Source: Opeltia flavorubescens
Taxonomy: Eukaryota > Ascomycota > Lecanoromycetes > Teloschistales > Teloschistaceae
NCBI GenBank assembly: GCA_000442125.1
Contig: KE546974.1
Span: 930,001 to 994,000 of the forward strand
Length of the DNA stretch: 64,000 nucleotides
Direction: 5' to 3'
Below the pieces are notes generated by a model. It did no database searches and was not told where the DNA came from. It saw only the letters and a list, made by a program, of their open reading frames with translations. The first letter of the stretch is position 1. Each line of letters starts with the position of its first letter. The position numbers and the translations under genes were made by a program. Of this stretch, positions 4,212-53,600 are shown piece after piece.

Positions 4212-4220
4212 CTTGAATAT

Positions 4221-4472
4221 ACGCGTCGGAATGGGTTGGGTTTTGGGGTGGGTTTTAGCAAATTTTGAAAACCCAAAAAAACCCCGTTGGCCTTTTTAGC
4301 GCCGGGAGCTAATATTAGCGCGCTAGATTTTAATACGAGCTAGAGCCGTATAAAAGCTATATTTTTTATATATATTATTTTTCTATAGCTATTATAGTTA
4401 TCTAGATATTAAAAATACGCTAACGCGTTTTTTTCTCTAAGTCCGCAAAACGGGGCCCCGTTCCGACGAGGA
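4221..4472. mobile_element. GC-richer MITE-like inverted-repeat element
   Basis: This 252-bp segment stands out by base composition: it keeps G and C runs and TG dinucleotides that its surroundings have lost. Near its ends are imperfect inverted repeats: CGTCGGAATGGG at 4,224 faces the reverse complement of a segment ending CCGTTCCGACG at 4,468. It is flanked on both sides by the 9-bp direct repeat CTTGAATAT (4,212-4,220 and 4,473-4,481), whose last 8 bp would fit the 8-bp target duplication of hAT transposons. A second, internal hairpin is formed by GGGTGGGTTTT and its complement around 4,239-4,280. The inverted repeats start a few bases inside the direct repeats, so the exact ends are uncertain. 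It inserted at the very edge of R1 after most of the RIP. Confidence 0.6.
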
Positions 4473-4473
4473 C

Positions 4474-6300
4474 TTGAATATCGCGTTAATATAATCTAGA
4501 TTATTAATTATTACTAATATTTAATTAGCTTTATAAATAAAAGCTAGTAAATACTATTATAAATTAATTTCGCTAGCTATATATCTTTAATAATATTAAC
4601 TATCTAGTTCTAATTACCTATATATTTATATATTTTAGTAGCTATAATCCGCTAGAATCTAGATTAGAATTAATAGAAATAGCGGGGAAAAAATAAAAAA
4701 TTATCAATTATAAAGCTGAATTTTTTATTTTATTTTTATTTTCAATAAATAATTTATTATTATAAATTATTATTTTTTTTATTTTTAATATATTTTAATA
4801 TATTTTTTTAAATATTATTATCTTAATAACTATTAAATAATAGAAAACTCGTTATAATATTTTTATTTTTTTAATAATACGGGCTAGTTAACGGATTAAC
4901 GTTATAATTTATTTTATTCTTATTATTAAATATAACTAGCTGTTTTTTATTAAAAAAACTTTAATTACTATAAATATCTATAAAAGTTAGCCGTTAAAAT
5001 AGACGATATAATTAAAGTTAGCCGTTAAAATAGACGATATAATTATTTAAAAGTTAATTAATTATTTAATAAATTTTTCTAAAAATTATTTAATAGGATT
5101 ATCTTTAAATTATTTTTTTATATATAAAAAAGATTAGATTTCGGGTTAATAATATATAGTTTTTATAAATCGACTTTAAAACTATTAATATCTTTTTTTC
5201 GCGGGCCGAATTTAAAGTTACTAGCGTTTTTTTTTAATTCGGCTTTTTTTTCGCTAGTAGATAATTTTTATTTACTAGACTTAATAGATCGATTTAATAA
5301 AATAATATATTTATTTTATTAATATAAAAGTAAAATTTTATTTTTTTATAAATTTAAAAATTTTAAAATCGCTAAAATAATAATTTAAATTTATATTATT
5401 AATAGTTATATTATTAATATTATTAATTCTAATAATTTTATAGTTTTAGAAAAATAAAATTAAATTTACTTTATTAATTTATAGTTATAATATAGATATA
5501 AATTTCTAATATATTATACTATAAATAGTATATAATATAATTTATAAAATTATTTGTATTTAAAATTATAATTATTATTTTATTTATAATAGGGTATTAG
5601 AGTAAATAATTAAAAAGCGAAAAATTAAAAAAAAAATTTATCTATATTTAGAATTAGAGTTTATCGAAATTAATATTATTTAAATTTAGATATTTTAGTA
5701 TTAAAATAGATAAAATTTATTTTATAATAAAGTAATAGTTATTTATATATATTTTTTCCGATAGTTTAAAAAGAAAATTTATATTTTCTATACTAAAAAA
5801 CCCGAGTCTAATTTTAATAGTAATAGAAAATTGAATAAAAAAAATATATATATATATAATTAAATAAATTATAGGTATTATTATTAGTAATAAAAATTTT
5901 TTTAATACTTTTCGCGTTAATAAATTTCTATAATTATTTCTTTTAAACTTCTTTTTTATTTTAGCGCCGAATAATAATAAGTATTTAAGAATACTAAATA
6001 TTATTTTCTTTTTAAAATTCGGAAAGTTATAAATATTAAAATTATTAATAAATTTATTTTTAATTTTTTTTATAACTTTTATTTTAGCTATTTTAAACGA
6101 TTTTTTATTATTATTAAACGTTTTATTATATAATTTATTTTAAAGAATTCGAGCTTTTATTTTATTAAAAAGCTATTTAAATTTTTTATATTTTATTATA
6201 GAATATATAATTTTATAAAATTTATATAATTAGTTTAAAAACTTAATCGGTTTAATAATATAATTAAATCCTATTATAAAAAATATTTATTATATAATTA
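4474..6300. repeat. Long direct repeat R1, right copy
   Basis: The right copy of the repeat at 42-1,740, in the same orientation and similarly RIP-altered. It begins TTGAATATCGCGTTAATATAA directly after the small inverted-repeat element and loses similarity at about 6,300. It is slightly longer than the left copy, partly through the 31-bp duplication at 4,983-5,044. No coding domain was recognised. Confidence 0.6.
4983..5044. repeat. 31-bp perfect tandem duplication
   Basis: Two identical 31-bp units (4,983-5,013 and 5,014-5,044), each carrying GTTAGCCGTTAAAATAGACG. The left R1 copy has a single, more altered version. The two units are identical despite the heavy RIP around them, so the duplication arose after RIP had acted here. 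Confidence 0.8.
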
Positions 6301-11471: not shown

Positions 11472-11779
11472 TTTTAAATAGCTATTTAACTAAAATATAG
11501 TTCTAATAAACGAGATAATAAAAATACTTTTTATATATTTAGCGCGTAATTTTTTATAATATTTATTCCCGCTTTTTTATCTTTATATATTTTTTAGTAA
11601 TAATTATATTAATAATATTATTAAAAGTTTTAAAAAAGCTACTTTTTATAATTATAGCTTTATATTATTATTTTTATTTAATACCGGAGTTTAAAACGAG
11701 CTATTATATAAATTATATACAAATACGCCCGCGAATAAAATTTAAATCTAATTTACTCTTTTTATAAAAAAATACGCAA

Positions 11780-12150
11780 ATAAAAGGTCCAGCTTATATA
11801 AAAAATTAATTTCTACCCGCTTATCTATTAGCAACAAGCTGCGTTTAATAAGCGAGGAAAATTAGATTCCAGCTAGATTTTGCAGTTGTAATAACTCAGT
11901 TAATTTCGTGTATAGTAATATACAAAGTGGCTTATTTTAAAGCGCTAAACGAGCGTATTCTAATGCTATAAAAATTTCGAAATTTAGATAAAAACTGGTA
12001 GTATTATCAGCTGTAGAAGATTTACGCTGGCGATTTTCATTGTACGCTCGCTGAAAAAGCTTATAGGGCTGAAATAGCTAGTAGGGCTAAAAAGCCTTAT
12101 AGGGCTGAAAGATTTTATAGGGCTAAAGAATCTAATAGGGCTAAAAAGCC
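11780..12150 (+). repeat. Short dispersed repeat S, diverged copy
   Basis: The reverse complement of this segment matches 35,456-35,838 over at least 150 bp. Shared strings include TTTTGCAGTT, AATTTCGTG or AGTTTCGTG, AAGCGCT, GCGTATTC, CTATAAAAA and CTGTAGAAG or CGTAGAAG. The two copies are therefore inverted relative to each other. This copy keeps some CA and TG but is clearly more RIP-altered than the 35.5 kb copy, and it also differs by changes RIP cannot explain, so the copies separated before RIP. Its left boundary is vague. The right part is the 18-bp tandem array. Read on the minus strand, one frame is similar at protein level to the plus-strand frame of the other copy, but in-frame stops occur here. 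Family unknown. Confidence 0.65.
12061..12150. repeat. 18-bp tandem repeat, five units
   Basis: Five units of exactly 18 bp start at 12,061, 12,079, 12,097, 12,115 and 12,133, each with the core TAGGGCTRAA. The length is a multiple of three, so a frame through it would give a six-residue repeat: on the plus strand it reads Ala-(Glu/Lys)-x-x-x-Arg. The minus strand also stays partly open. A shorter 16-bp array with the same TAGGGCT core occurs in the related copy at 35,506-35,537. Confidence 0.85.
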
Positions 12151-16719: not shown

Positions 16720-19700
16720 GATACTAGTAATAAATAAAGCTATTAGCCTCTAATAATAGGCTTTTCCTTACTAATAAACGGCTTTTTAGCTTATTCCTAC
16801 TATTTAATATTAGTATTAGTATCGTTAACGGCCTTATTATAGTCTAGAGNTAATTTCGGGCTAAAACGGCGTTTATACTCTTCTATTAGTATTTTAATAT
16901 TACTTAAACGGTATTTAAATATTTATTAGTCGTTTTTAAACCTATAACTAACTTAATAAATAAGATATTAAGTAGAAAAACCTTTATTTTTATAGATACG
17001 GCGTTTATAAAGGATTTATTCGATTTTAAACTCTTTATTACTATTAATAATAATAGGGGGTATAGATATATAGTAGCGCTAATAGGGATTATCGCTAAAG
17101 TTAGTAATAGGCTTTAGATATACTATTAATATTATATTATAAATTTTTATAATAGGTAGTAGCTCTAAATAATAAACTAATAATTTAATATATTTAATAG
17201 TTTTAAAAAAACCTACTAGTTATTATTTAATCTTTTTAAAAATAAGTTTTAATATATAATAGCTTTAATATAAATATATTTTTATAAAATTATTAATTTT
17301 AAAATAAACTAATTAATAATATATATTATAATATTCTTTTATTTTTATTATAGTAAAGGTAATAATACTCTTAATATTAATATATATAAGCTAGTACTCT
17401 TTTATAGTTATTAGTACTATAGTATTCCGTACTATAAATAAATTTATAGGCTTATTAACTTCTAAAATAATCGGGTTATAGCGATAAGCTATTTATATTA
17501 TAGCTAGAAAAACAGCTGGTTCTTTTATAAAAACATTGGCGGGAGCTTTAAAACCTAGCGTATCTTCTATTTAAATAGCTTATTTAAGGTCTAGTAAATA
17601 TAAAAAGTCTAGAGCTTTATAAATTTTAAATCCGAATAATATTTAATTAAGTATTTTAAATATAAAGCTATAATTTATAGAATTATTAAAAACCGCTAAT
17701 ATTTATAAAAAAATAATAGGCTATTATCTAAAATTATCTAGTATAGCGATATAATAATATATAGTAATTTTAATAATTTAATTAGACTATTTTAATATAC
17801 TATTAATTTATAGATACTAGGTAGTAGAATACTATAGATTTACCTTTAATATTTTAAATATCTAGTATTATAACTAACCTATAAATTTTTTATCGGGATT
17901 TAAAATTACTATTTATAATACGCTTTAATTTAGCTTTACTAGTCTATCTAATAATATTTCGGCCTATTATTTACCGCTTTAAATAGTTTTTTTAGATATA
18001 TAGGTAACTACTTTAATAAATTTATCTATTACTAATATATAATAATTATATTCTTTATATAATTTTAGAAGGATAAGAATAAAATAAATAATAAATATAT
18101 AAAATAGTTTTATTAGGTTAAATATTAGTTATAAAGCTTTATATAAACGGTAATAAAGTATTTAATTAATTTAATATTATAAATAGTAGTAAATATATTT
18201 ATATAGCTTTATTAATATATTATATATATAAAAGCCTTTTATTAAACGTTTATATATATATATATAGCCGGAATAGCCTATTTTATTATATATTAGCTAA
18301 AATACTTCCTTTTTTATATCTATAGGTATTATTAAACGTAGGCCTTATTTATTATTATTAAAATAAAATAGTATATTAATAATATAATATAGTAGTTTAA
18401 TAGTATTATTTTTAGTTTTATATTAATTTTAATAAATTTTTTAATTTTAGCCTAACGGCCTTTTTTTATATATTTATTAATTAATTATTAACGNAATTCG
18501 GTTAATATTTCTACTAGGCTTATCGGGAAGTAACGTACTATAAAAGTATTTATATCTAGTAATTCGTTTACTTCTAAGCGGTATTTATAGCTAGCGAGCC
18601 TTAATAATATATTTAGAATTATATTTATAACTTTAGACTTATAGCGAATATTAAATTTAAAGTATTAAAAATATTTAAAAGTTTATATTAAATAAAAATT
18701 AAATTTTTTTATAAATATTATATTTAAACTAGTCTAGCGTAAAATACTAATTATAATAGAATAATCTATATAGATAATAATAATATATTTAACTACTTTA
18801 ATTATATAGCGGATTTTTTTAATTATTTAAATAATATCTATAATCTTTAATTTTATAAACTAATAATATATTTTAGCGTTTAATAATAAACGGTTAAAAA
18901 ATAGAATTAATTATTTAAATTTCTATTTAAATTCTTTACCTACTTTATAAATAGCTTCGTCTATATTATAATAGATATAGGCTATAAAACCGAACTTTTA
19001 ACTAGTATTTAGGTTTATATATAGTATTAAACTTTTATTAAAATAGATTAGAATCGATAATAATAAAAAATATTTCTATAGATAATAAAATATATTAAAT
19101 TCTTTAAATATAAATACTACTAGTAGATTCCGGGTAGTAGCTTTTTTATAAATATTATTTATTTCTAATAGTAATATCGCGGTTTATATAAATTTTACGT
19201 TTTTAAAATAATTTTATAATAGTTATATAATTACTAATATACTATTAAAGGTAGCCTATTAAATTTAAATATTTTTCTAATTATTAAAATATATATAGAA
19301 ACGAGAATTTTAAAATTACTTCTAATTTATTTTTTATTATAATAAACCCGAAGGTATTAATTTTCTAATCTAATAGATATATAAATATATAGCTAATAAA
19401 TAATTCTATAAATAATAAATATAGATTTATAATATTAAATATATTAAAAATTTAATTAAAATACTCTATATATTCTTTTATTAAAAAGAAAAAAACTATA
19501 ATATTATCGATATAAACTTTTTAAAAAGAATAAAATAAATATAAAATTTTATTTATTATTTATTATATATAAATTAATAAGTTATAATAGTTTATTACCG
19601 GTATTTTAAATATTTTTTATCCTTAATATAAAATTATTATTAAGTAGTAGCGATACTATTAGTTAATCTACTATTAATAAAAAAAGCTTATAAAGTCTAT

Positions 19701-22700
19701 TATAAAAAGGATTTTAGTACTATAAATTTACGCTAGAATTTCTATTTATAGTAGAACTAAGTAAGTATTTAATATTATAATTTTATTAAATACCCGAATA
19801 TTAATAATAATATAGCTTTTAAAATTTTAATTAGTATTTTTTTAAATTATAAAGTAAAGAAATAAAAATAAAGTAGTTATAATAGTCTATTTTATCTAAT
19901 TTTATTTATAAAGCTTATTAAAGGCTTTATTAATAACCTTTTTATTATAAGTATTAATAGGGTATATATAGGTTTATTTAAATTTATAGATCTATTTTTA
20001 GTTTTTTATTAATAAAATATTTATATATTTTAATTTTAGTATATTAATTATATTATTAGTATTCTATTATAAACGCGGGTAGCGTTTAATTAAAATAACT
20101 AGAGTAGTTCGTTTAGCTTATATTTTAAAAATCGTTACTTTTATAAAATATACTACCTTTATTTAATAATTAGAATTAATAAATAGTATAATAGCGGTAT
20201 TAAAAGCTATAATAGTTATTATAATAACTATTATATAGTATTTAAAATTCTTTAAAAACTATTTAAACTTTTATTTTAATATTTTAATAGCTAACTTATA
20301 ATTTTTTAAACTAATTTAATAGTATTTATTAGCTTTATATTTTTAAATAATACCTAGCTAAATTTTTATAGCTAATTAAATAAAGAATAATAAATTATTT
20401 TAAATATAGTTTTATTTAAATATATAATTTATAATATATATATAGCTAATAAAAATATTTAAAATTTTTAACTTATAAATAAAGTTATAGTTTTATAAAA
20501 AGTTTAAAGGTTTTCAATATAAACTAGTAATTTTAATAGCTCTACTAATATATAATAGTACTATAATAGATTAAATATTATAAATAATAATATTTATTCT
20601 AATATTTTTAATATTAATAGCGATTAATATTATTATATTATTATAGGAGCTAATAATTATTATATTTATAAATAGATATATATTAATATTTTTAAACTTT
20701 ATAATATTTATATTAATAAATATATTAACGTTTAAATCGTTTATTAGATAAAGTTTTTATATAATAATAATAAGCTTTATAGTTTTTTTATTAAATATAA
20801 AAATTTCGATAATTATAAATTTAATAATATTATATTATTTTTTATTAATACCTTTAATAGTTATAAAAGCTAGTATCTTCTAAATTATAATATATAGTAG
20901 TTATTCTAGTAGAAATTTTCGATTAATTAAGTTTATTATATAGTTTATATTCTAATAAAAATTATAATTCTTTATATTTAATTATAAGCGAATATCTATA
21001 GTTATATAATAGTATTCTTAAAAGGTAAAATCTATTATTAATATATTTTTCGCGGTTAAACGAATTAATTAGGGTATTTATAATAGTAGTTATTTAATAA
21101 CCTCTAATTTAATAACCTTCGGCGTATTTTTAAATAATTTAATTAGTTTTAAATAAGTTTATATTAGTATTAATAGAATATTTAGTTTAATAATTAGCTT
21201 AATTATAGTAGCTATAGCTAGGAGTGGTTTTTTTCTATAGCCGGAGCGTAGGTACTAATATAAAGTATTATTTAATTTAAAAATTTTATTATATTTATTA
21301 TATTAGTATATTTTAACTAGTTTAGGTTCCGTATATTTTACTATAATAAAGTAGAATTCTACTATATTATTATATTAGTTAGAATTTTTAATAGTAGTAT
21401 ATAGAGCTTTATCTAACTTTTTATTTATTATATATTCGGCTTTAATAAAATCTATTAATTAGTAGAAATTATTTTTATAATTTTAATACTATTTTATTTT
21501 ATCGCCTAGAATTTACTCGCCGGAAGCTTTTTATTAAAAGTAGGCTCGCTAATTATTTAACTAGCGGTTTTTATATAGATTCCGGCTATTATTATACTAT
21601 TAATAGCTATAGCTTTACTAATTTCTAGTTTAATTCTATTATAGCGGAATAATTATTTTAGGCGGAAACTATAAATAATTATTTTAAATAATATATTAAT
21701 TATTTTATATATTAAGCTTACTTTTAATTAATAGAGCTTATAGAGTTATAAAAAGATTCTAATATTAATATATAATAGGAAATATATTCGGTTAATTTCT
21801 TTATATATAGCTCGGGTATATAAATAAATATTTAGGTATATAAAAAGAGTTATTTTATAGCGGCTGGNATACTATTATTTTTTTATATTATTTATTTTTA
21901 TTCTTTTATAAAGAATTTAATTTTAATATTTTATAGTTTTTATTACTATTATAGATATTAAATTAATTATTTTTTTTATTTTAAAAAAACTTATAAAAGG
22001 CTTTAATAATAATTATTATAGTTTTATCTAAAATTAATATTAATAGCCGGGCGTTAAAATATTCGATACTAATTATTATTTAAGTATTTTTAAAAGATAC
22101 TATTTTTACGTTTTTTATTTTAATAATAATATTATTAAAATATTCTAAAAGGTCTTTTTAAACCCGTATATTATTAATAATATAATATATTTATTCTAAC
22201 TACGCTAGTATAGTAGACGGTAGCTCGCTGAAATAGTTTTTAAAAAATATATATTATAATTTAATACTTTTACCTAATTATAGCGATTTATAAGTAGGTT
22301 TATTAATTATAATAATAAATTATATAATTATTTTATTTTATAAATAAAAATCTAGATTATAATATATTAATAATATATTTATTATTTTATATTTAATTTT
22401 TATACGTTATATAAAAGCGTATATATAATAATAAATATTATATAACTTTATAGATTTTACGAGCTATTTATTATTATCTAGTTAAAATAAATTAATATTA
22501 TAAACCTTTTATTATAATTTAATAATAGTTAGTATAACTACTAGGTTTATTAGTATAGTAATTATTTAATTCTAGAAGTTTTATATAAAAAATCCTAGTA
22601 ATTAAACTAGACGGGCGTCTATAAATAGTTATCTATTTAAAGGGGTTTATTACTATTATAAATTACTATTATTTATAAATCCACTTTATTATTATTATAG

Positions 22701-23501
22701 TAGAATTCCTATTATATCTAGCGGTAGTATAATACTCCCTTCCGATTTTATTAAATAAAGTAGGTTAGATTTAGTACTAGAAATATAATTTAGCTACTTA
22801 AATATATTAATAAATTTAATAATATTTATAAATTTATCGATCTATTATAAATCTTTTAACGAGTTTAGAAAATAAAAATAAAGGTTTAAACTATTCTAAA
22901 TAAATTTTATAGCTAGTTTTTAAATATAAATTTAAAAGTTTTTATTTTTAAGGATTATAATAATATTATTATAGAAATCGTTTATTATTTTAATAAAAAT
23001 TTATAGATATTCGCTCTAATTTATAAAATAAGTAGTAATAAAAGCTATATTAGTTTTTATTATACTAGTTTAAATTACCCGACTACTAGAAGATTTCTAT
23101 ATTAAAAAACGATATAAGCCTAGATTTTTTTTATAGATATAGTCGATATAGGTTTTAAAGATTATTATAAAGGCTTAATCCTATTTTAAAAACCGCTTAA
23201 TATATTTTTAGAACTCTTTAATATAGAAGGTAGCTATAATAAAAGCTAGTATAATAGCGAGGTTAATTAGGTCCTCCGAATTATTATAGAAAATATCTAG
23301 AACTTTACTAAAAGGACTGGAAGCTAGAGTATATTTTAGTTAATTCTATTAACCGAGTATTAGTATAAAAGCGGTAGTTTAGTAGGCGGAAGAATACTAG
23401 ATCTATTTAAAAGATCTAGTACTATATAATAATTAATAGTATATATATACGGAAGTTAATAATATTATATTTTATACGGATTGCCTTTAATTACTACTAT
23501 T

Positions 23502-27400: not shown

Positions 27401-30400
27401 AGATAATAGCGGTATTATTAATTAACTTATTATCAATAAAAAAAAACTTATAAAGTTTACTATAAAAGAAACTTTAATATTATAAATTTATATTAGAATT
27501 TCTATTTATAATAAAATTAAATAGATATTTAATACTATAATTTTATTAAATACTCGAATATTAATAATAATACGGTTTTTAAAACTTTAATCGGTTTTTT
27601 TTTAAATTATAAAGTAAAGAAATAAAAATAAAATAGTTATAATAATTTATTCTATCCGATTTTATTTATAAAATTTATTAAAAACTTTATTAATAATTTT
27701 TTTTTTATAAATACTAATAAAGTATATATAGGCTTATTTAGGTTTATAAATCTACTTTTAATTCTCTATTAATAGAATATTTATATACTTTAACTCTAGT
27801 ATATTAATTATATTATCGGTATCTTACTATAAACGCGGGTAACGTTTAATAAAAGTAATTAAAATAACTCGTTTTATTTATATCTTTAAAATTATTATTT
27901 TAATAAAATATATTATTTTTATCTAATAATTAGAATTAATAAATAGTATATTAATAGTATTTAAGGTTATAATAACTTTTATAATAGCTGCTATATAGCG
28001 TTTAAATTTTTTTAAAAACTATTTAAACTTTCGCTTTAATACTTTAATAATTAATTTAAAATTTTTTAAATTAATTTAATAGTATTTATTAGCTTTATAT
28101 TTATAAATAGTACCTAATTAAATTTTTATAACTAATTAGATAGAAAATAGCTAATTATTCCGAATATAAATTTATTTAAATATATAATCTATAATATATA
28201 TATAGCTAGTAAAAATATTAAAAGTTTTTAGTTTATAAATAAAATTACGGTTTTATAAAAGGTTTATAAATTTTTAATATAAACTAGCGATTTTAATAGT
28301 TTTAATAGTATATAATAATATTATAATATATTAAATACTATAAATAATAGTATTTATTCTAATATCTTTAATATTAATAATAATTAGTATTATTATCTTA
28401 TTATAGGAATTAATAGTTATTATATTTATAAAGAAATATATATAAATATTTTTAAATTTTATAATATCGATATTAATAAATATATTAACGCTTAAATCGT
28501 CTACTAGATAAAGCTCGTATATAATAATAATAAACTTTATAGCCCCTTTATTAAATATAAAAATTTTAATAATTATAAATTTAATAATATTATATTATCT
28601 TTTACTAATATGTTTAATAATTATAAAAATTAGTATTTTCTATATTATAGTATACGGTAGCTATTTTAATAAAAATTTTTAATTAATTAAATTTATTATA
28701 TAGTCTATATTTTAATAAAAGTTGAAATTTTTAATAATTAATTATAAGCGAATATTTACGGTTATATAACGGTATTTTTAAAAAGTAAAATCTACTATAA
28801 ATATATCCTTTATAATTAAATAAATTAACTAGAATACCTTTAATAATAGCTACTTAATAACCTCTAGTTTAATAATTTCTAGTGTATTTTTAAATAGTTT
28901 AACTAGTTTAAAATAAATTTATACTAAGATTAATAGAATATTTAGCTTAATAATTAATTTAATTATAGTAATTATAATTAAAAATAGTTTTTTATTATAA
29001 CCGGAGCGTAAATACTAATATAGTATATTATTTAATTTAAAATTTTCGTTATATTTATTATATTAATATATTTTAACTAATTTAAGTTCCGCGCGCTTTT
29101 TTATAATAATATAGAATTCTATAATATTATTATATTAATTAAAATCTTTAATAGTAGTATATAGAATTTTATTAAACTTTTTATTTATTATATATTTAGT
29201 TTTAATAAAATTCGTTAATTAATAAAAACTATTTTTATAATTTTAATACTACTCTATTTTATTATTTAAAATATATTCACTAAAAGCTTTCTATTAAAAA
29301 AAAGCTCGTTAATTATTTAGCTAGCGGTTTTTATATAAATTCCGGCTATTATTATACTATTAATAGTTATAACTTTACTAGTTTTTAGTTTAATTTTATT
29401 ATAGCGGAATAATTATTTTAAACGGAAACTACTAATAATTATTTTAAATAATACGCTAATTATTTTATATATTAGGCTTACTTTTAATTAATAGAATTTA
29501 TAAAGCTATAAGAAAATTCTAGTATTAATATATAATAAAAAATATATTTAGTTACTTTTTTTATATATAGTTTAAGTATATAAATAGATATTTAAATATA
29601 TAAAAGGAGTTATTTTATAGTGGTTAATATACTATTACTTTTTTATATTATTTATTTTTATTTTCTTATAAAAAGTTTAATTTTAGCGTTTTATAGTTTT
29701 TATTATTATTATAAATATTAAATTAATTGTTTTTTTTCTTTTAAAAAAACTTATAAAAGGTTTTAATAGTAGTTATTATAGTTTTATTTAAAATTAATAT
29801 TTATAATCGAGCGTTAAGATATTTAATATTAATTATTATTTAAATACTTTATTAAGTATTATTTTTATATTACTTATTTTTAATAATAATATTATTAAAA
29901 TATTTTAAAAGGTTTTTTTAAACCTATATATTATTAATAATATAGTATATTTATTCTAGTTATATTAATATAATAAATAATAGCTCGTTAAAATAGTTTT
30001 TAAAAGAATTATACTATGATTTAATATTTTTACTTAATTATAGCGATTTATAAATAGATATATAAATTATAATAGTAAATTATATAACTATTTCGCTTTA
30101 TAAATTAAAATCTAGATTATAATCTATTAATAATATTTCTATTATTTTATATTTAATTTTTATATATTATATAAAAGCGTATATATTATAATAAATATTA
30201 TATAATTTTATAGATTTTATAGACTATTTATTACTATTTAATTAAAATAAATTAATATTATAAACCTTCTATTACTATTTAGTAATAACTAGTATAATTA
30301 TTAGATTTACTAGTATAGTAATTAGTTAATTTTAAAAATTCTATATAAAAAATTCTAGTAGTTAAACTAGACGGGTATTTATAAATAGTTATTTATTTAA

Positions 30401-31252
30401 AAGAATTTACTACTATTATAACGAATTATTATTATTTATAAATCCACTCTATTATTATTATAATAGGATTTCTACTATATTTAATAGCGGTATAATACTA
30501 TTTTCCGATTTTAATAAATAAAATAAATTAGATTTAGTATTAGAAAATATATAATTTTATTATTTAAATATATTAATAAATTTAGTAATATTTATAAATT
30601 TATTAAATTATTATAAGTTTTTTAGCAAGTCTAGAAAGTAAAAATAAAAATTTAAACTATTTTAAATAAAATCTATAACTAGCTTTTAAATATAAATTTT
30701 GAAGTTTTTATTTTTAAAAATTATAATAGTATTATTATAAAAATCGTTTATTATTTTAATAAAAATCTATAAATATTTACTTTAATTTATAGGGTAAGTA
30801 GTAATAAAAGCTATACTAGTTTAAATTACCCGGCTATTAGAAGATTTCTATATTAAAGAATAGTATAGGCCTGGATTTTTTTTATAAATATAGTCGATAT
30901 AAGCTTTAAAAATTATTATAAAAGCCTAATCCTATTTTAAAAACTATTTAATATACTTTTAGAGCTTTTTAATATAGAAGATAATTATAATATAAGCTAG
31001 TATAATAATAAAATTAATTAGATTCTTTAAATTATCGTAGAAAATATTTAGAATTTTATTAAAAGAATTAAAAATTAGGGTATATTTTAATTAATTCTAT
31101 TAACCGAGTATTAATATAGAGGCGGTAGTTTAGTAGATAAAAAAGCGCTAGACCTATCTAGAATATCTAGTATTATATAATAGTTAATAGTATATATTTA
31201 TAAAAATTAATAGTATTTTATTTTATATAAGTTACCTTTAATTACTATTATT

Positions 31253-35455: not shown

Positions 35456-35838
35456 CTAGCATTGGGCCACCGTCCCATTGGGATTTTGCTGCTAGCAGCT
35501 GGCAGCTGGTAGGGCTGGCAACTGGTAGGGCTGCCAGCCAGCGCAGTACAGCCAGAGCTTCTACGCGCTATAACGCCACCAATTTTAATCTGATTTCCAA
35601 AGTTTTTATAGTATTGGAATACGCTTATCAAGCGCTTCAAAATGAGCTACTATGCATGCTGCTGTGCACGAAACTGACGATGTTATTTAACTGCAAAAAA
35701 CCAGCTGTTTTGATGGTTGATAGGGGTAAAAATAGCCTAACCGAAGTAGGATCTGCAAACGTTCGATACCAACCGATAAAGTTTATACTTATTTCGGGTC
35801 GGGAAGCCGATAAAGGACGTTTTTCAATATATATATAA
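35456..35838 (+). other. Unmutated island: dispersed repeat S, intact-looking copy
   Basis: About 380 bp with ordinary base composition and many CA and TG dinucleotides, bounded sharply by RIP-altered DNA. It is the inverted, better-preserved relative of 11,780-12,150. One plus-strand frame stays open from the left edge to a stop at 35,836-35,838, about 127 codons. From 35,614 it would read 74 residues beginning at a TTG (the rest is LEYAYQALQNE, a Leu/Cys-rich stretch with LLCTKLTML, then a charged tail). The minus strand also has a 63-codon open frame (35,640-35,449), again without an ATG. With no early ATG on either strand, neither is a convincing gene. The related copy shows similarity in the same plus-type frame, but substitutions are not concentrated at third positions. 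A tRNA-like B box (GTTCGATACC) lies at about 35,760. It could be a recent short insertion, a SINE-like unit or a leftover of single-copy DNA. Function unknown. Confidence 0.6.
35506..35537. repeat. 16-bp tandem pair with TAGGGCT core
   Basis: CTGGTAGGGCTGGCAA and CTGGTAGGGCTGCCAG stand side by side within a CTGGCAG-rich, partly palindromic stretch (35,490-35,542). The same TAGGGCT core builds the 18-bp array of the related repeat at 12,061-12,150, on the same strand of the window even though the two repeats are otherwise inverted. Confidence 0.75.
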
Positions 35839-37305: not shown

Positions 37306-40300
37306 ATTCTAACTCTTTTTTTTCTTTATATTTAAAAGCCCGGATTACTATTAAAAATATTTACTAGATAAGCTCGCGGTTATAATAGAAATAGAAATAA
37401 TAATAATAGTATAATTATCGATATCTAGAATCTAAAAATTTAATTAGAAACTATATATATAAATTTAATAGACGGATTTTTTAGTATAACTAGTTTAATA
37501 ATTCTTTAGGATAAGTATATTATAGAGCTATTTAATAATACCGCGGGATTATAATAGAATAATAGTATTCCTTTAGTAGAATTAACGCCGGATCCTAATA
37601 CTTATCGTTATAAAAGTAAGAAGCTAATATATAATATAACTCCGTCTCCTTTATTATCTAGTTTTAATAATAGCTATAATAATAGCGATTTTTTAAATAC
37701 CTCCTTAAACGCGTAAACGGAATAGAAGATTAAAGATTTAAAGTATAGAATAGAAAGAACTATTAAGCGTACTCGTTATTTTAAAAAAACTAAAGTAGTT
37801 TATAAATAAGCTTAAATAATACTTTAAAAGCTTTATATACTAGTTAATATTTTTATATCTATTATTTCGTTTATCGATATTAAACCTTTTATTATTATAA
37901 AATTAAAAAATATTAAGCTAGCTTTTTTACTAAACTATTTATTAAAGGATAATTTTACCGGCTATTAAATAAAGATATTATAAGTAGATATAACGTTTAA
38001 ATTATTATAGGATTTATTTTTAATAAATAAAATAAAAATCTGGTTTATTATATTATTATTAAAAGATAACCCTCTAATATAATAAACTTAATATATAAAA
38101 ATAGATAAGATTAATATAAACTAGCTGAATTTTTATAAATAACTACTTAATTTTTTATTAAATAAAGAAAGCCGATCTTTAAACTTTTTATCGAAGTATT
38201 ATATATAAAAATAGAATATTATAATATTATAAAAGTTTTATAACTAAATAAAACTATTTAAAAATTAGTTACTAGGGCTATTAAAAAAATAATATATAAT
38301 AAATTTTATTATAAAATTTAAACGCGATATTTAAATATTAATATATTATTTTAAATATTAATATATTATTTTAAATATATATTTAAAAATAAAATAAAGG
38401 ATAAATAAATAGCTTTAATAATTTATATAAAAGGTATTAAGAAAGATATTAATATAAATACCTTTTATAAAAAGCTTCTCTCTTTAAATTAAAGTAACTA
38501 GGGTAGTTAAATTTTAAAAAAATTTTATAGTAGTTATATAGGGAATAAATAAAAATATAATAATTATAGGCCCTATAACGGGCCCTTTATAAGATTAAAA
38601 AATAGTAAAAATATTAATTTAAAGGATTTAAATTAAATAAAATATTATAATTAGTATAAAAAAGGTTATTATTCTACTAATTATCTTTATATAAAAAAGT
38701 TAATAAAAAAAATATTTATTAAAAGTACTAAATCTAGTATTAATAAAAATTCTAATATAGTTTTAAAAAATAATTAAATTTAAATAAAGTTTTAGCGTTT
38801 AAATATTATCTAATTAAAGTAATAAAAAGAATTAAAATAGTACCCTAATTTTATATAAATATTTAGATTAAAGGGGCTTTTATATTATTAAATATAGGGT
38901 TTAATATTAACTATATTTTATAAATTAAAGTAGTAAAATAGGACTTTATTCTAATAAATACTAGTTATCCTACTTTAAACTAGTTTTAAAATTAGTAATA
39001 TTACTATTATAGAATTTATAATTTAAAATAGACTTATATTAATAGTTAAAGTATAAAATAAATAATTTCTACTACTTTTTTTTATACTATTAATTTAGAT
39101 AAATATAATATAATTTTAAATATTTTAGAAATCTATAAAACTAGTTTACTTATTAATATATAAATTATAGAGTAGCGCTTTTTTATTAAAATTAATTAAA
39201 TATAAATAAACCGCTTATAAATCTTTAAATAATCCTTTAAAATATATTTTATTATATACGCTTTAATAATATTAGTAGTAAAAAATCTAATTAATATTAA
39301 TAATATTAAAATTTTATACTAAATTAAAAACTTTAAATTTATATTTTTTATAGTAGAATCGGGTAAGTTACTTTAATTAAAATCTAATAATTATATTATT
39401 AATTTAATAAAAGGTAAAGAACTATTATATTAACTAATATATAATCTATTAAATAACGAGTTAAAAGAATTACGCTAATATTTTAAAAAAAATTTTAAAA
39501 AAAGCTGAATCTAATATTTAATCTTATTTATAAGAGTTTCTATTATATTTATACTAAAAAAGGATAGTAGATTATATTTATAAATAGATTACCGTAGTTT
39601 AAATAGGATAATAATTAAAGATTAGTATTTATTCCTTTTAATTATTAAAATTTTAGATCGTTTATATAATATAAAAAAATTTACGAAGATAAATATACGC
39701 GATATCTATTACTAGATTAGAATTAAATAAAAAGATAAATAAAAGATAATATTTTATATTAAATATAAATACTTTAAATATTTTATTATATTTTTTAATT
39801 TAATAAATATCTTTATAACCTTCTAAATATATATTAATAAAGCGTTAATAAAAATAATTAATATTTTTTATATAATATATTTAGATAATATTCTAGTATA
39901 TTTAAATTCCGAAAAAAAATACTAGGAGTATATTTATATAATCCTATACCGACTCTATAAATACTAGTTATTTTTAAATTTAAAAAAATACGTATTTAAT
40001 ATAAAATAGCTAGAATTTTTAAAATATATTAAATTATTTAAAGGAGAAGAAATAGATTTTAAAAAAATAAATTAATTTAAAATTAACCTATTCTAAAATT
40101 ATATAAGGATATTTAAATACTTTTAAGCCTAATAAATTTCTATTAACGATTTATTAAATATTATTCAAAGATTATAGCGCTTATAATTAATTTATTAATT
40201 AGTATAAAAAATAATAAAAAATTACAATTATTAAAATAGAATAATACTATTTAAAAAAATTTTAAAAAATTAAAAAAAACTTTTACTATAGTACTATTAC

Positions 40301-42919
40301 TAAAATATTTTAATTTAATATATAAAATCCGGATTAAAATAAATACTTTAAATTTCGGTATTTTTAGTATTATAATTTAATTAAATAATAATAATATTTA
40401 TTATCTAATAATTTTCTAGTTAAAGAAAATATTAATAGTTAAATAGAATTATAAAATCTATAATTAAAAGCTATTCGCTATTATTAAAGTTTTTAAATAA
40501 TAGCAGTATTATTTTAAAAAAGCCTAATATATTAATAAAATATTCTTAGATTATAATAATTTAAAGGGATTTATATATATTAATCAATTTAATAATAAAT
40601 AATAACGCTAGATTATAAAATTAATAGTTATAAATTTTAAAATCTTTTATTAAATTAAGAAATTAAATCTAATATATTTCCTATTAAAAAAACTAAATTA
40701 TTAAAAAATTAACTTTAAAACTTTAATAATAATATTTATATTATAATAAAGGCTATCTTTTATTAATAATATATTACCTATATTAATAGCGATAAAAAAA
40801 ATAAAAGTAGTATATTTATATAAAAAATTTAAATAAAAAGTTTAAAAAACTTTTATTAAAGACTAATACTTTTAAAAGATTTAGTAGTAGCCTACTAGTT
40901 TAAAAGTTTTATATTATATTAACGCCGATAACGTCCTATAAAAGCCCCGCTAAAAGTTTTTAAAAAAAAAACCTATTTTTTAATAAAAAAAGTATAATAA
41001 ATTCTATTATTAAAATAATTAATTATAAATAACACGTTTTATATTAAATAATAAAGGATACTACTTCTAGCGAAACAGCTTATAATAATAGTTTAATAAA
41101 TATAAAAAAAATAATTTTATAATTTTAATAAAATAATAATCTTATTATTACTAGATAATATAATCTTAAAAGCGCTTATAAAAAGAATTCTAAATATATA
41201 AAAGCCGGATTATAAAATTTAGGAGTAAAAGGAAAGTTATTATTTTATAAATCGCTATATATTTTAAAAGATTCCGCTATTTATATAAAATTTATAATAA
41301 ATATTATAATAATCATTTAGTTAAATATTTTAAAATAGAATAAATAATAGAACTACTTTACCGCTAATATTAATAGCTTAACCTAAATAAAAAGATTAAA
41401 AAATATATACAGATATATAATATTTACTAATATATAAAAATATATTAATATAAGCCGTATAATAAACTATAGTCTATTTTTATTCCTAATAGTCTATATT
41501 AAAAAATTATTTTAAATTTTATAACGGGATTACTACTATTAAAATACAATATAAATATAATTAATATTATACTTATTATAATAGACTAATATTTAAAGAT
41601 AGTTATATATATTTTATATATTAAAACTCTTAATATAATAGAATTTATAGATTTATTCTTATAAATAGTAATTTATAAAAAAATTATACTAAAAAGTATT
41701 ATTAATAATAAAAATTTATTATTTATAAGCGAATTCTAATCTAAAATCTACTACTATTTAAAAATAAAAAGGAAGTTAAATACCGTTTTTTATCTATAAA
41801 TAAACAATTAGACGGAGCGCTAAAATTAATTAATAAAATACTATTTTCGAATTTATTTAAATAAAGAGTAATTTAATTAAATAAAAATTTTTTTTATTAT
41901 AGAATTTATATATAATAATAGTATCTATTTTATTATTAATAAAATTCCGTTTTTTTTAATAATTAGGGTATATTTAAATCTAGAGTTTAATATTATAAAT
42001 AATATTTATAAATAAAAAATCTATAAAATTAGTATACTAATAGTAAAAAAATATATAAAGAAATTAATAGAATTATATAGAAAGCTAAACTAGAAATAAT
42101 AAAAGATATAAAAAAAATAGACGAAATATTATAATCGTTTTTATATAAATATAGAATTTAGTTTAAATAATATAATATTTCTATTATTAAAAAATTTAAA
42201 ATTAAAGAAATTATTTAAAAAACTCGTTTATTATTATATTAAATCGTACTATATTAAAGAATATATTAGTTTCTAAATATATAAACTATTATTACCGTCT
42301 AATTCGCGTATTTATAATATTTTCTAAATTTTTTTTATTAAAGAAATATTAGTAGAAAAAAAATAAAAGATTTTTTAATACCTACTTTTAAAGCTTATAA
42401 ATAATAAATTAAAATAGAAAATAAAAGTAATTCTAAATAAATATATTAAAGGATCTAAAAGTAAAATAAATTAATATTTAATTAATTAAATAAATTAATT
42501 AAAGGAATATAATTTATAATAACCGAAATTAGATTTAATAAATATTAAAAATCTAGTAAAAAAGTTTTATTAAAATTATGAGAAACCGTTAAAAAAATAT
42601 AAAAGAAAAAACTAAATATTTTAATTATACTAGTTATTATTATTTTTTAAATTTTTAACGGGCTTTTTATAGGCTTAAATAATATTATACCTAAACGAAA
42701 AATAAATATAAAGAGAAATAATATAAATAACGAAATTTATATTAAATTTTTATAAATTAATTAATTTATTTAAAAAGAACTTATTAAATATAAATTAAAA
42801 GCGAATTTAAAATAATAAATAGAATTTATTAAATTAAAATTTAAGCCTATTTAATAAAATAAATATTTATTAGTAGTTATATCCTATTTAATTTTTTTAT
42901 ATTATATTTATATATATTA

Positions 42920-47673: not shown

Positions 47674-50600
47674 AATAATAGTAATTATAGGTAATTTATA
47701 TAAAATATAATATTATTAACTTCTATATATATATACTAATAACTATTATATAGTACTAGATCCTTTAAATAAATATAGTACTTTTTTATTTATTAGATTA
47801 TTACTTCCGTACTAATATTTAATTAATAGAATTAATTAAAATATATTCTAATTTCTAATTCTCCTAATAAAATTCTAAATATTTTTTATAATAATTTAAA
47901 GGATATAACCGACTTTATTATTATATTAGTTTTGATTATAGCTACTTTTTATATTAAAAAGTTTTAAAAGTATATTAAATAGTTTTTGAAATAGAATTAG
48001 GCCTTTATAGTAATTCTTAAAGCTTATACCAACTATATTTATAAAAAAAGTTTAGACTTATACTATTTTTTAATATAGGAATCTTTTAATAGCTAGATAA
48101 CTTAAACTAATATAATAAAAGCTAGTACAGCTCCTATTACTATTTATTCTACAGATTAGAATAAGTACCTATAGATTTTTACTAAAATAATAAGCGATTT
48201 CTATAATAACGCTATTATAATTTTTAAAGATAAAAGCTTTTAAACCTATATTTAAGAGCTAGTTATAAATTTTATCTAGAATAGTTTAAGCTTTTACTCT
48301 TACCTTTTAAACTCGTTAAAAAATTTATAATAAATTAATCAATTTATAAATATTATTAAATTTATTAATATATTTAAGTAGCGAAATTATATTTCTAGTA
48401 TTAAATTCAGCCTACTTTATTTAATAAAATTAGAAGAGAGTATTATACCGCCGCTAGATATAATAGAAATTCTATTATAATAATAATAGGGTAGATTTAT
48501 AAATAATAATAATTTATAATAATAGTAAGTCCTTTTAAATAAGTAACTACTTATAAACGCCCGTCTAGCTTAACTATTAGGATTTTTTATATAGAATTTC
48601 TAGAATTAAATAATTACTATACTAGTAAATCTAGTAGTTATATTAACTATTACTAAATTATAATAGAGGGTTTATAATATTAATCTATTCTAATTAAATA
48701 GCGATAAATAGCCTATAGAATCTATAGAGTTATATAATATCTATTATAATATATACGCTTTTATATAACGTATAAAAATGAAATATAAAATAATAAATAT
48801 ATTATTAATATATTATAACCTAAATTTTTATTTATAGGGTAAAATAGTTATATAATATATTATTATAATTAGTAAACCTATCTATAAATTATTATAATTA
48901 GGTAAAAATATTAAATTATAATATATATTTTTTAAAAACTATTTTAATAAGCTACTATCTATTATACTAGCGTAGCTAAAATAAATACGTTATACTATTA
49001 ATAATATATAGGTTTAAAAAAACTTTTTAAAATATTTTAATAATATTATTATTAAAGTAAAAAATATAAAAATAATATCTATTAAAAATACTTAAATAAT
49101 AATTAGTATTAAATATTTTAACGCCCGGCTATAAATATTAATTCCGGATAAAACTATAATAATTATTATTAAAACTTTTTATAAATTCCTTTAAAATAAA
49201 AAAATTAATTAGTTTAATATTTATAATAATAATAAAAACCGTAAGACGTTAAAATTAAACCCTCTATAAAAGGATAAAAATAAATAGCGTAAAAGAATAA
49301 TAATATACTAGCTACTATAAAATAACTCTTTCTATATATCTAGATATTTATTTATATACCCGAGCTATATATAAAAAAACTAATTAAATATATTTTCTAT
49401 TATATACTAATACTAAAATCTTTTTATAGCTCTATAAATTTCGTTAATTAAAAGCGAGTCTAGTATATAAAATAATTAGCGTACTATTTAAAATAATTAT
49501 TAATAGTTCCCGCCTAAAGTTAATATTCTATTATAATAAAATTAAGCCAGAAATTAGTAAAACTATAACTATTAATAGTATAATAGCAGCCGGAATCTAT
49601 ATAGAAGCCGCTAGCCGAATAACTAGTAAATTTATTTTTAATAAAAAGCTTCTAGCGAGTAGATTTTAAGCGATAGAATAGAATAGTACTAGAATTATAA
49701 AAATAGCTTTTATTAATTAATAGACTTTACTAGAGCTAAATAAATAATAGATAAAGAATTTAATAAAGTTTTATATACTACTATTAAAAATTCTGACTAG
49801 TATAGTAATATAATAGAATTTTACTTTATTATAATAAAGTAGACGGTATTTAAATCTAGACTAGTAAAAATATATTAATATAATAAATATAACGAGATTT
49901 TAAAGTTAAATAACGTTTTATATTATTATTTACGCGCTAGTAATAATAAAAAATAATTTCTAGCTATAGCTACTATAATTAAACTAACTATTAAACTAAA
50001 TATTCTAGTAGTACTAGTATAAACTTATTTAGAACTAGTTAAGCTATTTAAAAATATACTAGAGAATATTAAATTAGAAGTTATTAAATAATTACTATTA
50101 TAAGTACCTTAGTTAATTTATTTAATTATAAAGAATATATTAATAGTAGGCTTTATTTTTTAAAAATATTATTATATAACCGTAGATATTCGCTTATAAT
50201 CTAATATAAGGAATTATAGCTTTTATTAGGATATAGACTATATAATAAGTCTAATTAACCGAAAATCTCTGCTAAAATAACTATTATAAGCTATAATTTA
50301 GAAGATACTAGCTTTTATAAATATTAAAGGTATTAATAAAAGGCGATATAATATTATTAAATTTATTATTATTAAAATCTTTATACTTAATAAAAAAGCT
50401 ATAAAGCTTATTATTATTATATATAAATTTTATTTAATAAACGATCTAAGCGCTAATATATTTATTAATATTAATATTATAAAGTTTAAAAATATTAATA
50501 TATATTTATCTACGAATATAATAACTATTAGCTTCTATAATAATATAGTTGTATTAATCGCTACTAATATTAAAGGTACTAGAATAAGCGCTATTATTTA

Positions 50601-53600
50601 TAATATTTAATATCTTATAATACCGCTATATACTAGTAAAACTATTAAAATTACTAGTTTACGCTAAAACCCTTTAAACCTTTTATAAAACTATAACCTT
50701 ATTTATAAACTAAAAATTCTAAATATTTTCGCTAGCTATATATATATTATAGATTATATATTTAAATAAATNTATATTNNNAANNATNTNTTATTNTTTA
50801 TTTAATTAGTTATAAAAACTTAACTAGATATTATTTATAAATATAAGGGTAATAAATACTATTAAATTAGTTTAAAAAACTATAAACTAGTTATTAAAAC
50901 GCTAAAATAAAAGCCCGGATAATTTTTAAAAAACTTTAAACGCTATATAATAGCCGTTATAATAGCTATTATAGCCTTAAATACCGCTATTATACTATTT
51001 ATTAATTTTAACTATTAAACGAAAGTAGTATATTTTATAAAAGTAACGATCTTTAAAATATAAATTAAACGAGCTGCTTTAATTACCCTAATTAAACGCT
51101 ATCTATATTTATAATAAAATACTAGTAATATAATTAATATATTAGAGTTAGAGTATATAAATATTTTATTAATAGAAAACTAGAAATAGATTTATAAGTT
51201 TAAGTAAGCTTATATATACCCCGTTAATATTTATAATAAAAAGGTTATTAATAAAATCTTTAATAAATTCTATAAATAAAATTAAATAAAATAGATTACT
51301 ATAATTATTTTATTTTTATTTTTTTATTTTATAATATAAAAAAATATCGATTAAAATTTTAAAAGCTATATTATTATTGATATTTAAATATTTAATAAAA
51401 TTATAATACTAAATACCTACCTAGTTCTAATATAAATAGAAATTCTAGCGTAAATTTATAATACTAAAGTCCTTTTTATAATAGACTTTATAAACTTCTT
51501 CTACTAATAGTANATTAACTAGTAGTACTATTATTATCTAATAGTAGTTTTATATTAAGGGTAAGAAATATTTAAAATACTAGTAATAAATTATTAGAAC
51601 TTATTAATTTATATATAATAGATAATAAATAGAATTTTATACCTATTTCGCTCCTTTTATAAAGTTTATATTAATAATATTATAATATTTTCTTTTTTAA
51701 TAATAAAATATATAAAGTATTTTAACTAGATTTCTAATATACTCGACGCTATAAATCTATATCTATTATTTATAAAATTATTTATTAGCTATATATTTAT
51801 ATATTTATTAGATTAGAAGGTTAATACTTTTAGATTTATTATTATAAAAATTAAGTTAAAAGTAATTTTAAAGCTTTTATTTCTATATATACTTTAATAA
51901 CTTAAAAAATATTTTAATTTAATAAACTATTTTTAATAATATATTAATAATTATATAGCTATTATTAAACTACTTTAAAAGTATAAAACTTATATAAACC
52001 GCGATATTACTATTAGAGGTAATATTTAAAAAAGAGCTACTACTTAAAATCTACTAACAATATTAATATCTAAAAAGTTTAATATATTCTATTATCTATA
52101 AAAGCTTTTTTTATTACTATTAATTCTATTCTATTTTAATAAAAGCTTAATATTATATATAAATCTAAACGCTAGTAAAAAATTTAGTTTTATAATCTAT
52201 ATTTATTATAATTTAAATAAAATTACTTATAAAATAGGCGAAAAACCTAAATAAAAATTTAAACGATCGATTTTATTTTTTAACCGCTTACTATTAAATA
52301 TTAAAATATACTATTAGCCTATAAAATTAAAGGTTATAGGTATTATTTAAATAATAAAAAAGATCCGTTATATAATCGAAATAGTTAAATATATTATTAT
52401 AATCTATATAGACTATTCCGCTATAATTAATATTTTATACTAAATTAACCTAAATATATTATTTATAAAAAAGTTTAATTTTTATTTAATATAAGCTTTT
52501 AAATACTTTTAACGTTTTAAACTTAATATTTATTATAAGCCTAGAATTATAAATACTATTCTAGATGTATTATTAAAACTTATTAGCTATAAATACCGCC
52601 TAAAAATAGATAAATCGTTAAATGTAGATATTTTTATAATACGTTACTTCCTAGTCAACCTAGTAGAAGTATTAGCTAAATTCCGCTAATAATTAATTAA
52701 TAAATATATAAAAAAAACCGCTAGATTAAAATTAAAGAATCTATTAAAATTAATATAAAGTTAAATAGTAATATTATTAAACTATTATATTATATTATTA
52801 ATAGGCTATTTTATTTTAATAATAATAAATAAAACCTACGTTTAATAATATCTACGGATATAGAAAAAAAAGTATTCCAGCTAGTATATAATAAAATAGG
52901 CTATTCCAGCTATATATATATATATAAATATTTAATAGAAGGCTTTTATATATATAATATATTAATAAAACTATATAAATTTATCCGCTACTATTTATAA
53001 TATTAAATTAACTAGATACCTTGCTACTATTTATATAAAGCTTTATAACTAGTATTTAATCTAGTAAAACTATTTTATATACTTACTATTAATTTTATCT
53101 TTATTCTACCGAAATTATATAAAAAATACAATTATTATATATTAATAATAAATAAATTTACTAAAGTAGTTACTTATATATTAAAAAAGACTATTTAAAG
53201 TAGTAAATAGTAGGTTAAATAGCTATTAGATAAACTAGTAAAACTAAATTAGAGTATACTATAATTAGTAATTTCGAATTATAATAGGAAGTTCGTTAGT
53301 TAATTATAGCGCTAGATATTTAAAATATTAAAGGTAAATTTATAGTATTTTACTATTTAATATCTATAAATTAATAATATATTAAAATAATTTAATTAAA
53401 CTATTAAAATTATTATACGCTATTATATTATTATATTAGACGATCTTAAATTATAGTTTACTATTTTTTTATAAATATTAATAGTTTTTAATAATTTTAT
53501 AAACTATAATTCTACGTTTAAAATATTTAATTAAATATTATTCGGATTTAAAACTCGTGAAGTATTAAACCTTTTATATCTATTAGACTTTAAATAAACT

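Follow-up and report, generated by a model that had tools for sequence, protein, structure and literature searches.

The bat transposon Helraiser starts with TC, ends with CTAG, inserts between A and T without target duplication, has been found with joined ends, and prefers A/T beside its 3' end (PMC4778049). These features are also found in the short transposon family described here, of which an island in RIP-degraded fungal DNA is one copy, and a RepHel resembling that of Helraiser is likewise present in the island's genome. In contrast to Helraiser, the family is only about 380-430 bp long and non-coding, its hairpin lies directly at CTAG, and most of its copies are RIP-mutated.

Among fungal Helitrons, FoHeli of Fusarium oxysporum is likewise accompanied by non-autonomous derivatives, FoHeliNA1 and FoHeliNA2; RIP marks are reported for FoHeli1 in F. 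solani and tandem copies for Metarhizium acridum, both as in the island family (PMC5148889). The FoHelis differ, however, in being of the Helitron2-like type: their inverted repeats are asymmetric and they end differently (TCAG...ATTTT in FoHeli1 and 2), and FoHeliNA1 and NA2 are 830 and 1929 bp long and low in copy number (PMC5148889). HELPO1 and HELPO2 of Pleurotus ostreatus resemble the island family in inserting at AT and in their T[C/G] and CTRR ends, and HELPO2 ends with CTTG as does one of our copies (L048); they differ in their basidiomycete host and their size of several kb (PMC4289320). For the canonical Helitron layout we follow the definition given in PMC5148889 and PMC4289320. Canonical TC/CTAG ends in an ascomycete are notable, since a broad survey judged most Helitrons of the Pezizomycotina to be non-canonical (PMC5148889).

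Other comparisons concern RIP and centromeres. The code DHH in the name of DHH_Sana from Cladonia rangiformis presumably stands for Helitron. DHH_Sana is described as partly RIPped (PMC12542154), as is the island family. DTM_Hades and DTX_Dionysus from the same species, about 730 bp long, may escape RIP through their size; they occur at about equal frequency in RIPped and unRIPped DNA (PMC12542154), while the island family is almost confined to RIP blocks. The length threshold of RIP varies: in Stagonospora nodorum a repeat of 275 bp is affected (PMC2621366), while Mycosphaerella graminicola has short MITE families that show no clear bias (PMC4522978). Plant centromeres contain truncated Helitrons whose tandem insertions were attributed to circles (as cited in PMC5148889); unlike these, the island family is fungal, sits in RIP context and consists mostly of single copies plus four zero-gap dimers. 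VdLTRE9 of Verticillium dahliae is likewise one repeat family that is concentrated, on each chromosome, in one AT-rich block of about 150 kb, but it is an LTR retroelement that makes up about 70% of the centromeres (PMC7482064), compared to about 2% of the clusters for the island family. In the passages of the literature searched, no report of this Helitron family was found; it is of a known kind.

The island lies in a window of 64,000 nucleotides (C10:930001-994000), which we analysed together with the genome of 34,397,415 bases in 23 contigs. Over its 383 bp (positions 35456-35838) the GC content is 0.44, the ratio (CA+TG)/(AC+GT) 1.37 and the density of CA+TG 125 per kb. For the remaining 63,617 bases of the window, values of 0.154, 0.108 and 5.6 per kb were found. 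A preliminary description of the window had noted this sharp switch of composition inside RIP-degraded DNA, and the boundaries it gave coincide with exact transposon ends. Counted per 383 bases, CA+TG reaches 48 in the island and 23 in the best other segments (starts 11691-11771). This second CA+TG-rich stretch overlaps a decayed copy of the same family (75-80% identity across about 141 bases), such that the island is not quite the sole segment of its kind. The window also contains a heavily RIPped repeat, for which 251 candidates were found in the genome and the best 40 scored; empty-site paralogues of several Helitron copies overlap this repeat. All features are collected in Table 1.

Table 1. 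Features of the 64,000-nt window (positions within the window).
Feature	Position	Strand	Basis or remark
Non-autonomous Helitron copy, 383 bp	35456..35838	- (transposon 5'->3')	Ends common to at least 87 paired copies; 51-copy alignment; host A 35455, host T 35839
Helitron 5' terminus: TC (TT in island), then ATATATATATTGG tract and GTC	35814..35838	-	Pattern match C10:965814-965838
Helitron 3' terminal CTAG (CTRR motif)	35456..35459	-	CTAG in 45 of 53 complete copies
Subterminal imperfect hairpin adjoining CTAG, 7-bp stem, 7-nt loop	35460..35480	-	
Internal minisatellite, GCTGGCA-type units	35498..35529	-	Direct repeat; large alignment gap columns fall here
Open reading frame of the preliminary description, judged non-coding	35458..35835	+	
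Truncated, decayed second copy of the island's family	11878..12029	+ (opposite strand to island)	BLAST matches to island and another copy; second-highest CA+TG stretch in window
Broken reverse-transcriptase relic	39557-40000 (C10:969557-970000)		Below family cut-off
Heavily RIPped repeat, three copies	22022-22825, 29782-30591, 48350-49153		
Empty-site paralogue of copy in L021 (e13)	40852..41150		299 bases, no gap, A^T junction
Empty-site paralogue of copy C2:1552182 (e1)	19418..19716		299 bases, no gap, A^T junction
Second empty-site paralogue of copy C2:1552182 (e1)	51465-51762		

The preliminary description had proposed a BLASTN search for further copies and shared boundaries and had listed a short mobile element among its options. 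A search of the same genome returned many copies with shared ends: the island gave 43 matches (40 of 118 candidates scored) and another copy used as query 44 matches out of 153 candidates. A genome-wide pattern search for the ends provided at least 87 complete copies paired end to end, 369-444 bp long with a median of 394 bp, whose common ends lie in different flanks and speak for the mobile element. Merging both end lists gave at least 123 elements; for these lower bounds the 5'-end places were merged from two pattern searches and one 3'-end place was added from a further search. The end patterns were found 122 and 113 times compared to 5 and 0 times for the respective reversed-pattern controls.

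An alignment of 51 copies (with L083 and L087 left out) reads on the plus strand as a host A, CTAG or a variant of it, the body of the element and a ATATATATAT[A/G]A tract, mostly followed by a host T. The reverse complement is 5'-TC...CTAG-3' flanked by A and T, i.e. the canonical Helitron arrangement. The host base was A at the CTAG side in all 53 distinct complete copies of the DNA examined and T at the other side in 48 of them. At the 5' end TC was found in six copies, TT in 46 and another dinucleotide in one (GA, AA and AT on the plus strand). When the 53 copies are ranked by mutation, four of those with TC fall within the five least mutated, and the remaining two rank 21st and 31st. As TT is the RIP product of TC before A, we infer from this ranking that TC was the original state of the family.

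Close to the 3' end, 74% of the cells of the hairpin (60 distinct tips) form Watson-Crick pairs, compared to at most 42% when the partner is slid by 1 to 4. All seven pairs are present in none of the 60 tips, and the island hairpin alone folds no better than its shuffles (z -0.03). It also lies directly beside CTAG, whereas the canonical 16-20-nt hairpin is located about 10-12 nt before the 3' end. A search against Rfam stayed below threshold, with a best score of 20.9 bits where the gathering score is 60. The internal minisatellite probably causes much of the length variation between copies. One diverged, little mutated relative (L048, G000:C8:1064960-1065309) ends with CTTG and sits where gene-like DNA meets degraded DNA; a recognisable 5' end was not found in it.

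Searching the DNA examined with the joined flanks we found a full-length empty paralogue for 27 of the 53 copies, two of them tandem dimers. For 23 of the 25 non-dimer copies at least one paralogue had a junction free of gaps (no gap within 14 bases), while for two none had. Gap-free empty junctions are indicative of insertion without target duplication or loss. The DNA beside the CTAG end is particularly poor in GC: over 10 bases a content of 4.2% was obtained, compared to 11.9% on the side of the TC end and 13-16% at distances of 21-100 bases. Four copy pairs (on C4, C14, C17 and C22) are joined head to tail with zero gap, which fits joined-end circles or rolling-circle concatemers. One copy (L007, C5:679190, e6) is inserted within a RepHel relic; its two empty paralogues read G^C and G^T, the filled site A^T. 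The family thus has exact common ends, A/T flanks, intact empty sites and zero-gap head-to-tail pairs. Taken as a whole, the island is best explained as a non-autonomous Helitron whose copies were then mutated by RIP, a reading to which we assign a probability of about 93%.

The preliminary description had called the island untouched by RIP. For the family this does not hold: In columns of the 51-copy alignment that have a single clear neighbour, a C followed by A reads as T in 52% of the cells, compared to 14% if followed by T and 1% if followed by G (from 15, 15 and 3 columns, respectively, the original C being assumed). Correspondingly, G reads as A in 47% of the cells after T and in 1% after C. 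Columns of A change in only 2.3% and columns of T in 1.5%, and transitions make up 69% of the pairwise differences between copies. Even for the island copy the statement is slightly wrong, as it has C-to-T type differences from other copies, e.g. it reads CATTGGG at a place where CACTGGG is present in about half of the tips. Densities of CA+TG range from 33 to 147 per kb between copies with a median of 83 per kb. The short Helitron family is RIPped, but incompletely.

Domain searches of the genome returned four loci for PF14214 and 24 matches for PF05970. Four of the latter were excluded (two as presumed PIF1 genes of the host, located on C2 and C15, and two for falling below the cut-off), which left 20 helicase loci including one on C8. 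The 5' end of the short element was found upstream and on the correct strand at nine of these, eight times at a distance of 4235-4284 bases and once at 4453. When the ends were shifted contig by contig as a control, 0.109 loci on average and at most 3 in any of 2000 trials had such an end within the counting window of 4150-4550, which was chosen after the distances were known. One of the nine 5' ends (C9:1076200) was obtained only with a RIP-tolerant pattern, and 11 of the 20 loci have no family 5' end at this spacing. Downstream of the nine loci, the matches listed contain no 3' end of the short family, such that the partner is tied to the family by its 5' end only. The common 5' end points to a RIP-killed RepHel element as the candidate partner.

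An un-RIPped RepHel was found at the C8 locus (L089, PF14214 match at 1042205-1042744), the other three PF14214 loci being full of stops. Its candidate frame was counted as 1669 aa without stops, across unread letters and with four further unknown letters in the part examined, and the 962 aa searched matched Helraiser (PDB 7lcc) with E 6.7e-154. L089 gives no blastn match to the RepHel relics, only tblastx matches (best E 1e-44), and may thus have arrived separately and later. The matches listed include no family 5' end in its vicinity. Also on C8, L095 is a fragment resembling L-ornithine N5-monooxygenase, L099 an AMP-binding_C match just under its cut-off, and L100 resembles an NRPS adenylation domain by eye. 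Together these are perhaps a siderophore locus near the RepHel frame, adjoining RIP-degraded DNA. A single giant cargo Helitron in an un-RIPped stretch of C8, made up of RepHel, the NRPS-like gene and the 3' end of L048, was rejected: samples taken between RepHel and the NRPS-like gene are RIP-degraded, and the 100 bases examined at the left border of the NRPS-like stretch hold no Helitron 5' end.

Throughout the genome, 120 of the 123 listed elements fall into one main cluster per contig, a cluster being a group whose neighbouring elements lie no more than 200 kb apart; on one contig there is just one element, and two groups span more than 300 kb. The densest 200 kb of each contig contain 116 listed elements compared to 53 expected for a uniform distribution, with the sizes of C1, C3, C14, C15 and C23 guessed. 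As these clusters are defined by the elements themselves, we compared the proximity to another element across markers, 19 of the 20 helicase loci being taken into this comparison. Another listed Helitron was found within 100 kb for 114 of the 123 Helitrons, 23 of the 40 best matches of the RIP-degraded window repeat and 21 of 38 broken reverse transcriptases (the PF00078 matches with stops, out of 40; Fisher p ~1e-6). Degraded DNA thus extends beyond the range of the Helitron. For 16 of 50 copies (L048 left out) the nearest neighbour in sequence is on the same contig, compared to a mean of 3.7 and a maximum of 12 in 1000 shuffles. This similarity comes largely from C7; without C7 the mean distance is 0.0788 within and 0.0837 between contigs. 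Overall the family covers about 2% of its clusters (at least 123 elements with a median of 394 bp in 2.85 Mb). In Cladonia rangiformis, with 34 Mb and 23 chromosomes, most chromosomes have one RIP block of 100-500 kb, which the authors read as the centromere (PMC12542154). Size and contig number of the island's genome agree with these values, which by analogy suggests, but does not prove, that the Helitron clusters are putative centromeres.

Other identities of the island can be weighed against these data. A remnant of single-copy host DNA spared by RIP, as considered in the preliminary description, would agree with the normal composition and the sharp edges. At least 87 paired copies, spread over many contigs and sharing their ends in different flanks, and the precise empty sites refute it, such that we give it practically no chance. 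A SINE or a TIR-type MITE would also be short, non-coding and dispersed, and the AT-rich end resembles a retroposon tail. Moreover, positions 35761-35770 (GTTCGATACC) bear what we take to be a resemblance to a Pol III B box. SINEs are recognised by a target duplication and a variable 3' tail, TIR-type MITEs by terminal inverted repeats and a target duplication. Here, no target duplication was found, no inverted repeat links both ends, the length of the AT tract is fixed in nearly all of 48 copies, and the zero-gap dimers as well as the 5' ends in common with RepHel loci also speak against either class, which makes it highly improbable. Helitron2 or Helentron elements, which have other ends and insert after TTTT or in TT (PMC5148889), are ruled out by the A^T insertion and the CTAG end. 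The plus-strand frame without early ATG seen in the preliminary description is real, being open across about 125 codons with its stop as the island's last codon, and a fully open plus frame arises in only 7 of 5000 base shuffles of the island. However, an open run of at least 110 codons is found in one of 51 aligned copies, the island itself, the median being 55, and the peptide has no Pfam family match at E up to 10. The open frame is a product of chance, the odds for a small protein are negligible, and the proposal that the island is the only segment that could still be functional is, in the coding sense, unsupported.

Within the Helitron reading, the island could look normal merely through its youth, with shortness being no shield from RIP. 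Since RIP reaches the family and its copies span such a wide range of CA+TG densities, time since insertion must matter, and we regard this as a real possibility though one short of even odds. Against it stand the RepHel relics, of which three have 4.6-11.8 CA+TG per kb. One pair (L090 and L091) differs by 568 transitions but only 19 transversions in 3552 aligned bases (0.5%), and is already down to 4.8 and 11.8 CA+TG per kb. Transversions between short copies amount to 2.5% (within C7) to about 8% (between contigs), such that the short copies seem older yet are less mutated, which supports partial protection by length; this comparison involves one relic pair, and the transversions of the short copies may have arisen before these were amplified. 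Dimers, about 800 bp in size, point in neither direction, two of them having 30 and 90 CA+TG per kb. Escape from RIP through shortness is therefore plausible and partly supported. The preliminary description had suggested that the island might stay below a RIP threshold of roughly 400 bp: while partial protection of short copies finds some support, RIP clearly reaches 380-430-bp elements, so there is no absolute threshold of this size here. A different question is whether the element serves the centromere, e.g. as a chromatin or kinetochore landmark. The main cluster on each contig, the closer proximity of copies to each other than that of the two other RIP-degraded markers, and the excess of nearest relatives on the same contig would agree with such a function. 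Yet among the matches listed C1 and C23 have no copy and C15 has one unpaired 25-base match, and these three contigs nonetheless carry the same degraded target repeat. The A/T insertion preference together with loss from gene-rich DNA would account for the pattern, Microbotryum likewise shows an expansion of Helitrons in its non-recombining DNA (PMC10502011), and the centromeres themselves are putative. We therefore consider a centromere function very unlikely.

For the non-autonomous Helitron, the following course can be proposed. The Rep/helicase of a longer Helitron with the same 5' end would nick the TC end, peel off one strand and stop at the hairpin and CTAG. The peeled strand would form a circle and be joined into an A^T step in A/T-rich DNA, and RIP would later mutate the inserted copies. 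Long RepHel copies would be saturated and killed, while the 380-430-bp copies would be hit only partly and appear as 'normal' islands in a degraded block. An insertion of the island copy after its surroundings had been degraded would fit this course.

RIP and the Helitron could moreover form a loop, in which RIP makes A/T-rich DNA with A^T targets and shortness lets the copies survive there. For e6 and e37 every gap-free empty paralogue reads G^T or G^C at the junction compared to A^T at the filled site, and for e7, e9, e32, e33 and e34 some gap-free empty paralogues differ at the junction in RIP fashion. Such differences are expected if RIP made the target first. Against the loop, e35 and part of e7 and e15 differ at the junction in a non-RIP way, and for 14 of 23 copies all gap-free paralogues equal the filled site at the junction. 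We thus consider the loop a tentative and rather unlikely idea. If it were true, a parasite that has settled and spread locally in putative centromeres would owe its landing sites as well as its refuge to the defence of the genome.

The points of interest of the family are its RIP gradient by length and its concentration in centromere-like blocks. Short elements and long RepHel elements with a common 5' end lie in the same type of block and bear very different mutation loads, which makes the family a natural test of how RIP depends on length. Among fungi, it also provides an example of a Helitron that is concentrated in blocks resembling centromeres and forms head-to-tail dimers. Finally, an island of 'normal' composition surrounded by RIP-degraded DNA need not be host sequence that was spared but can have inserted late.
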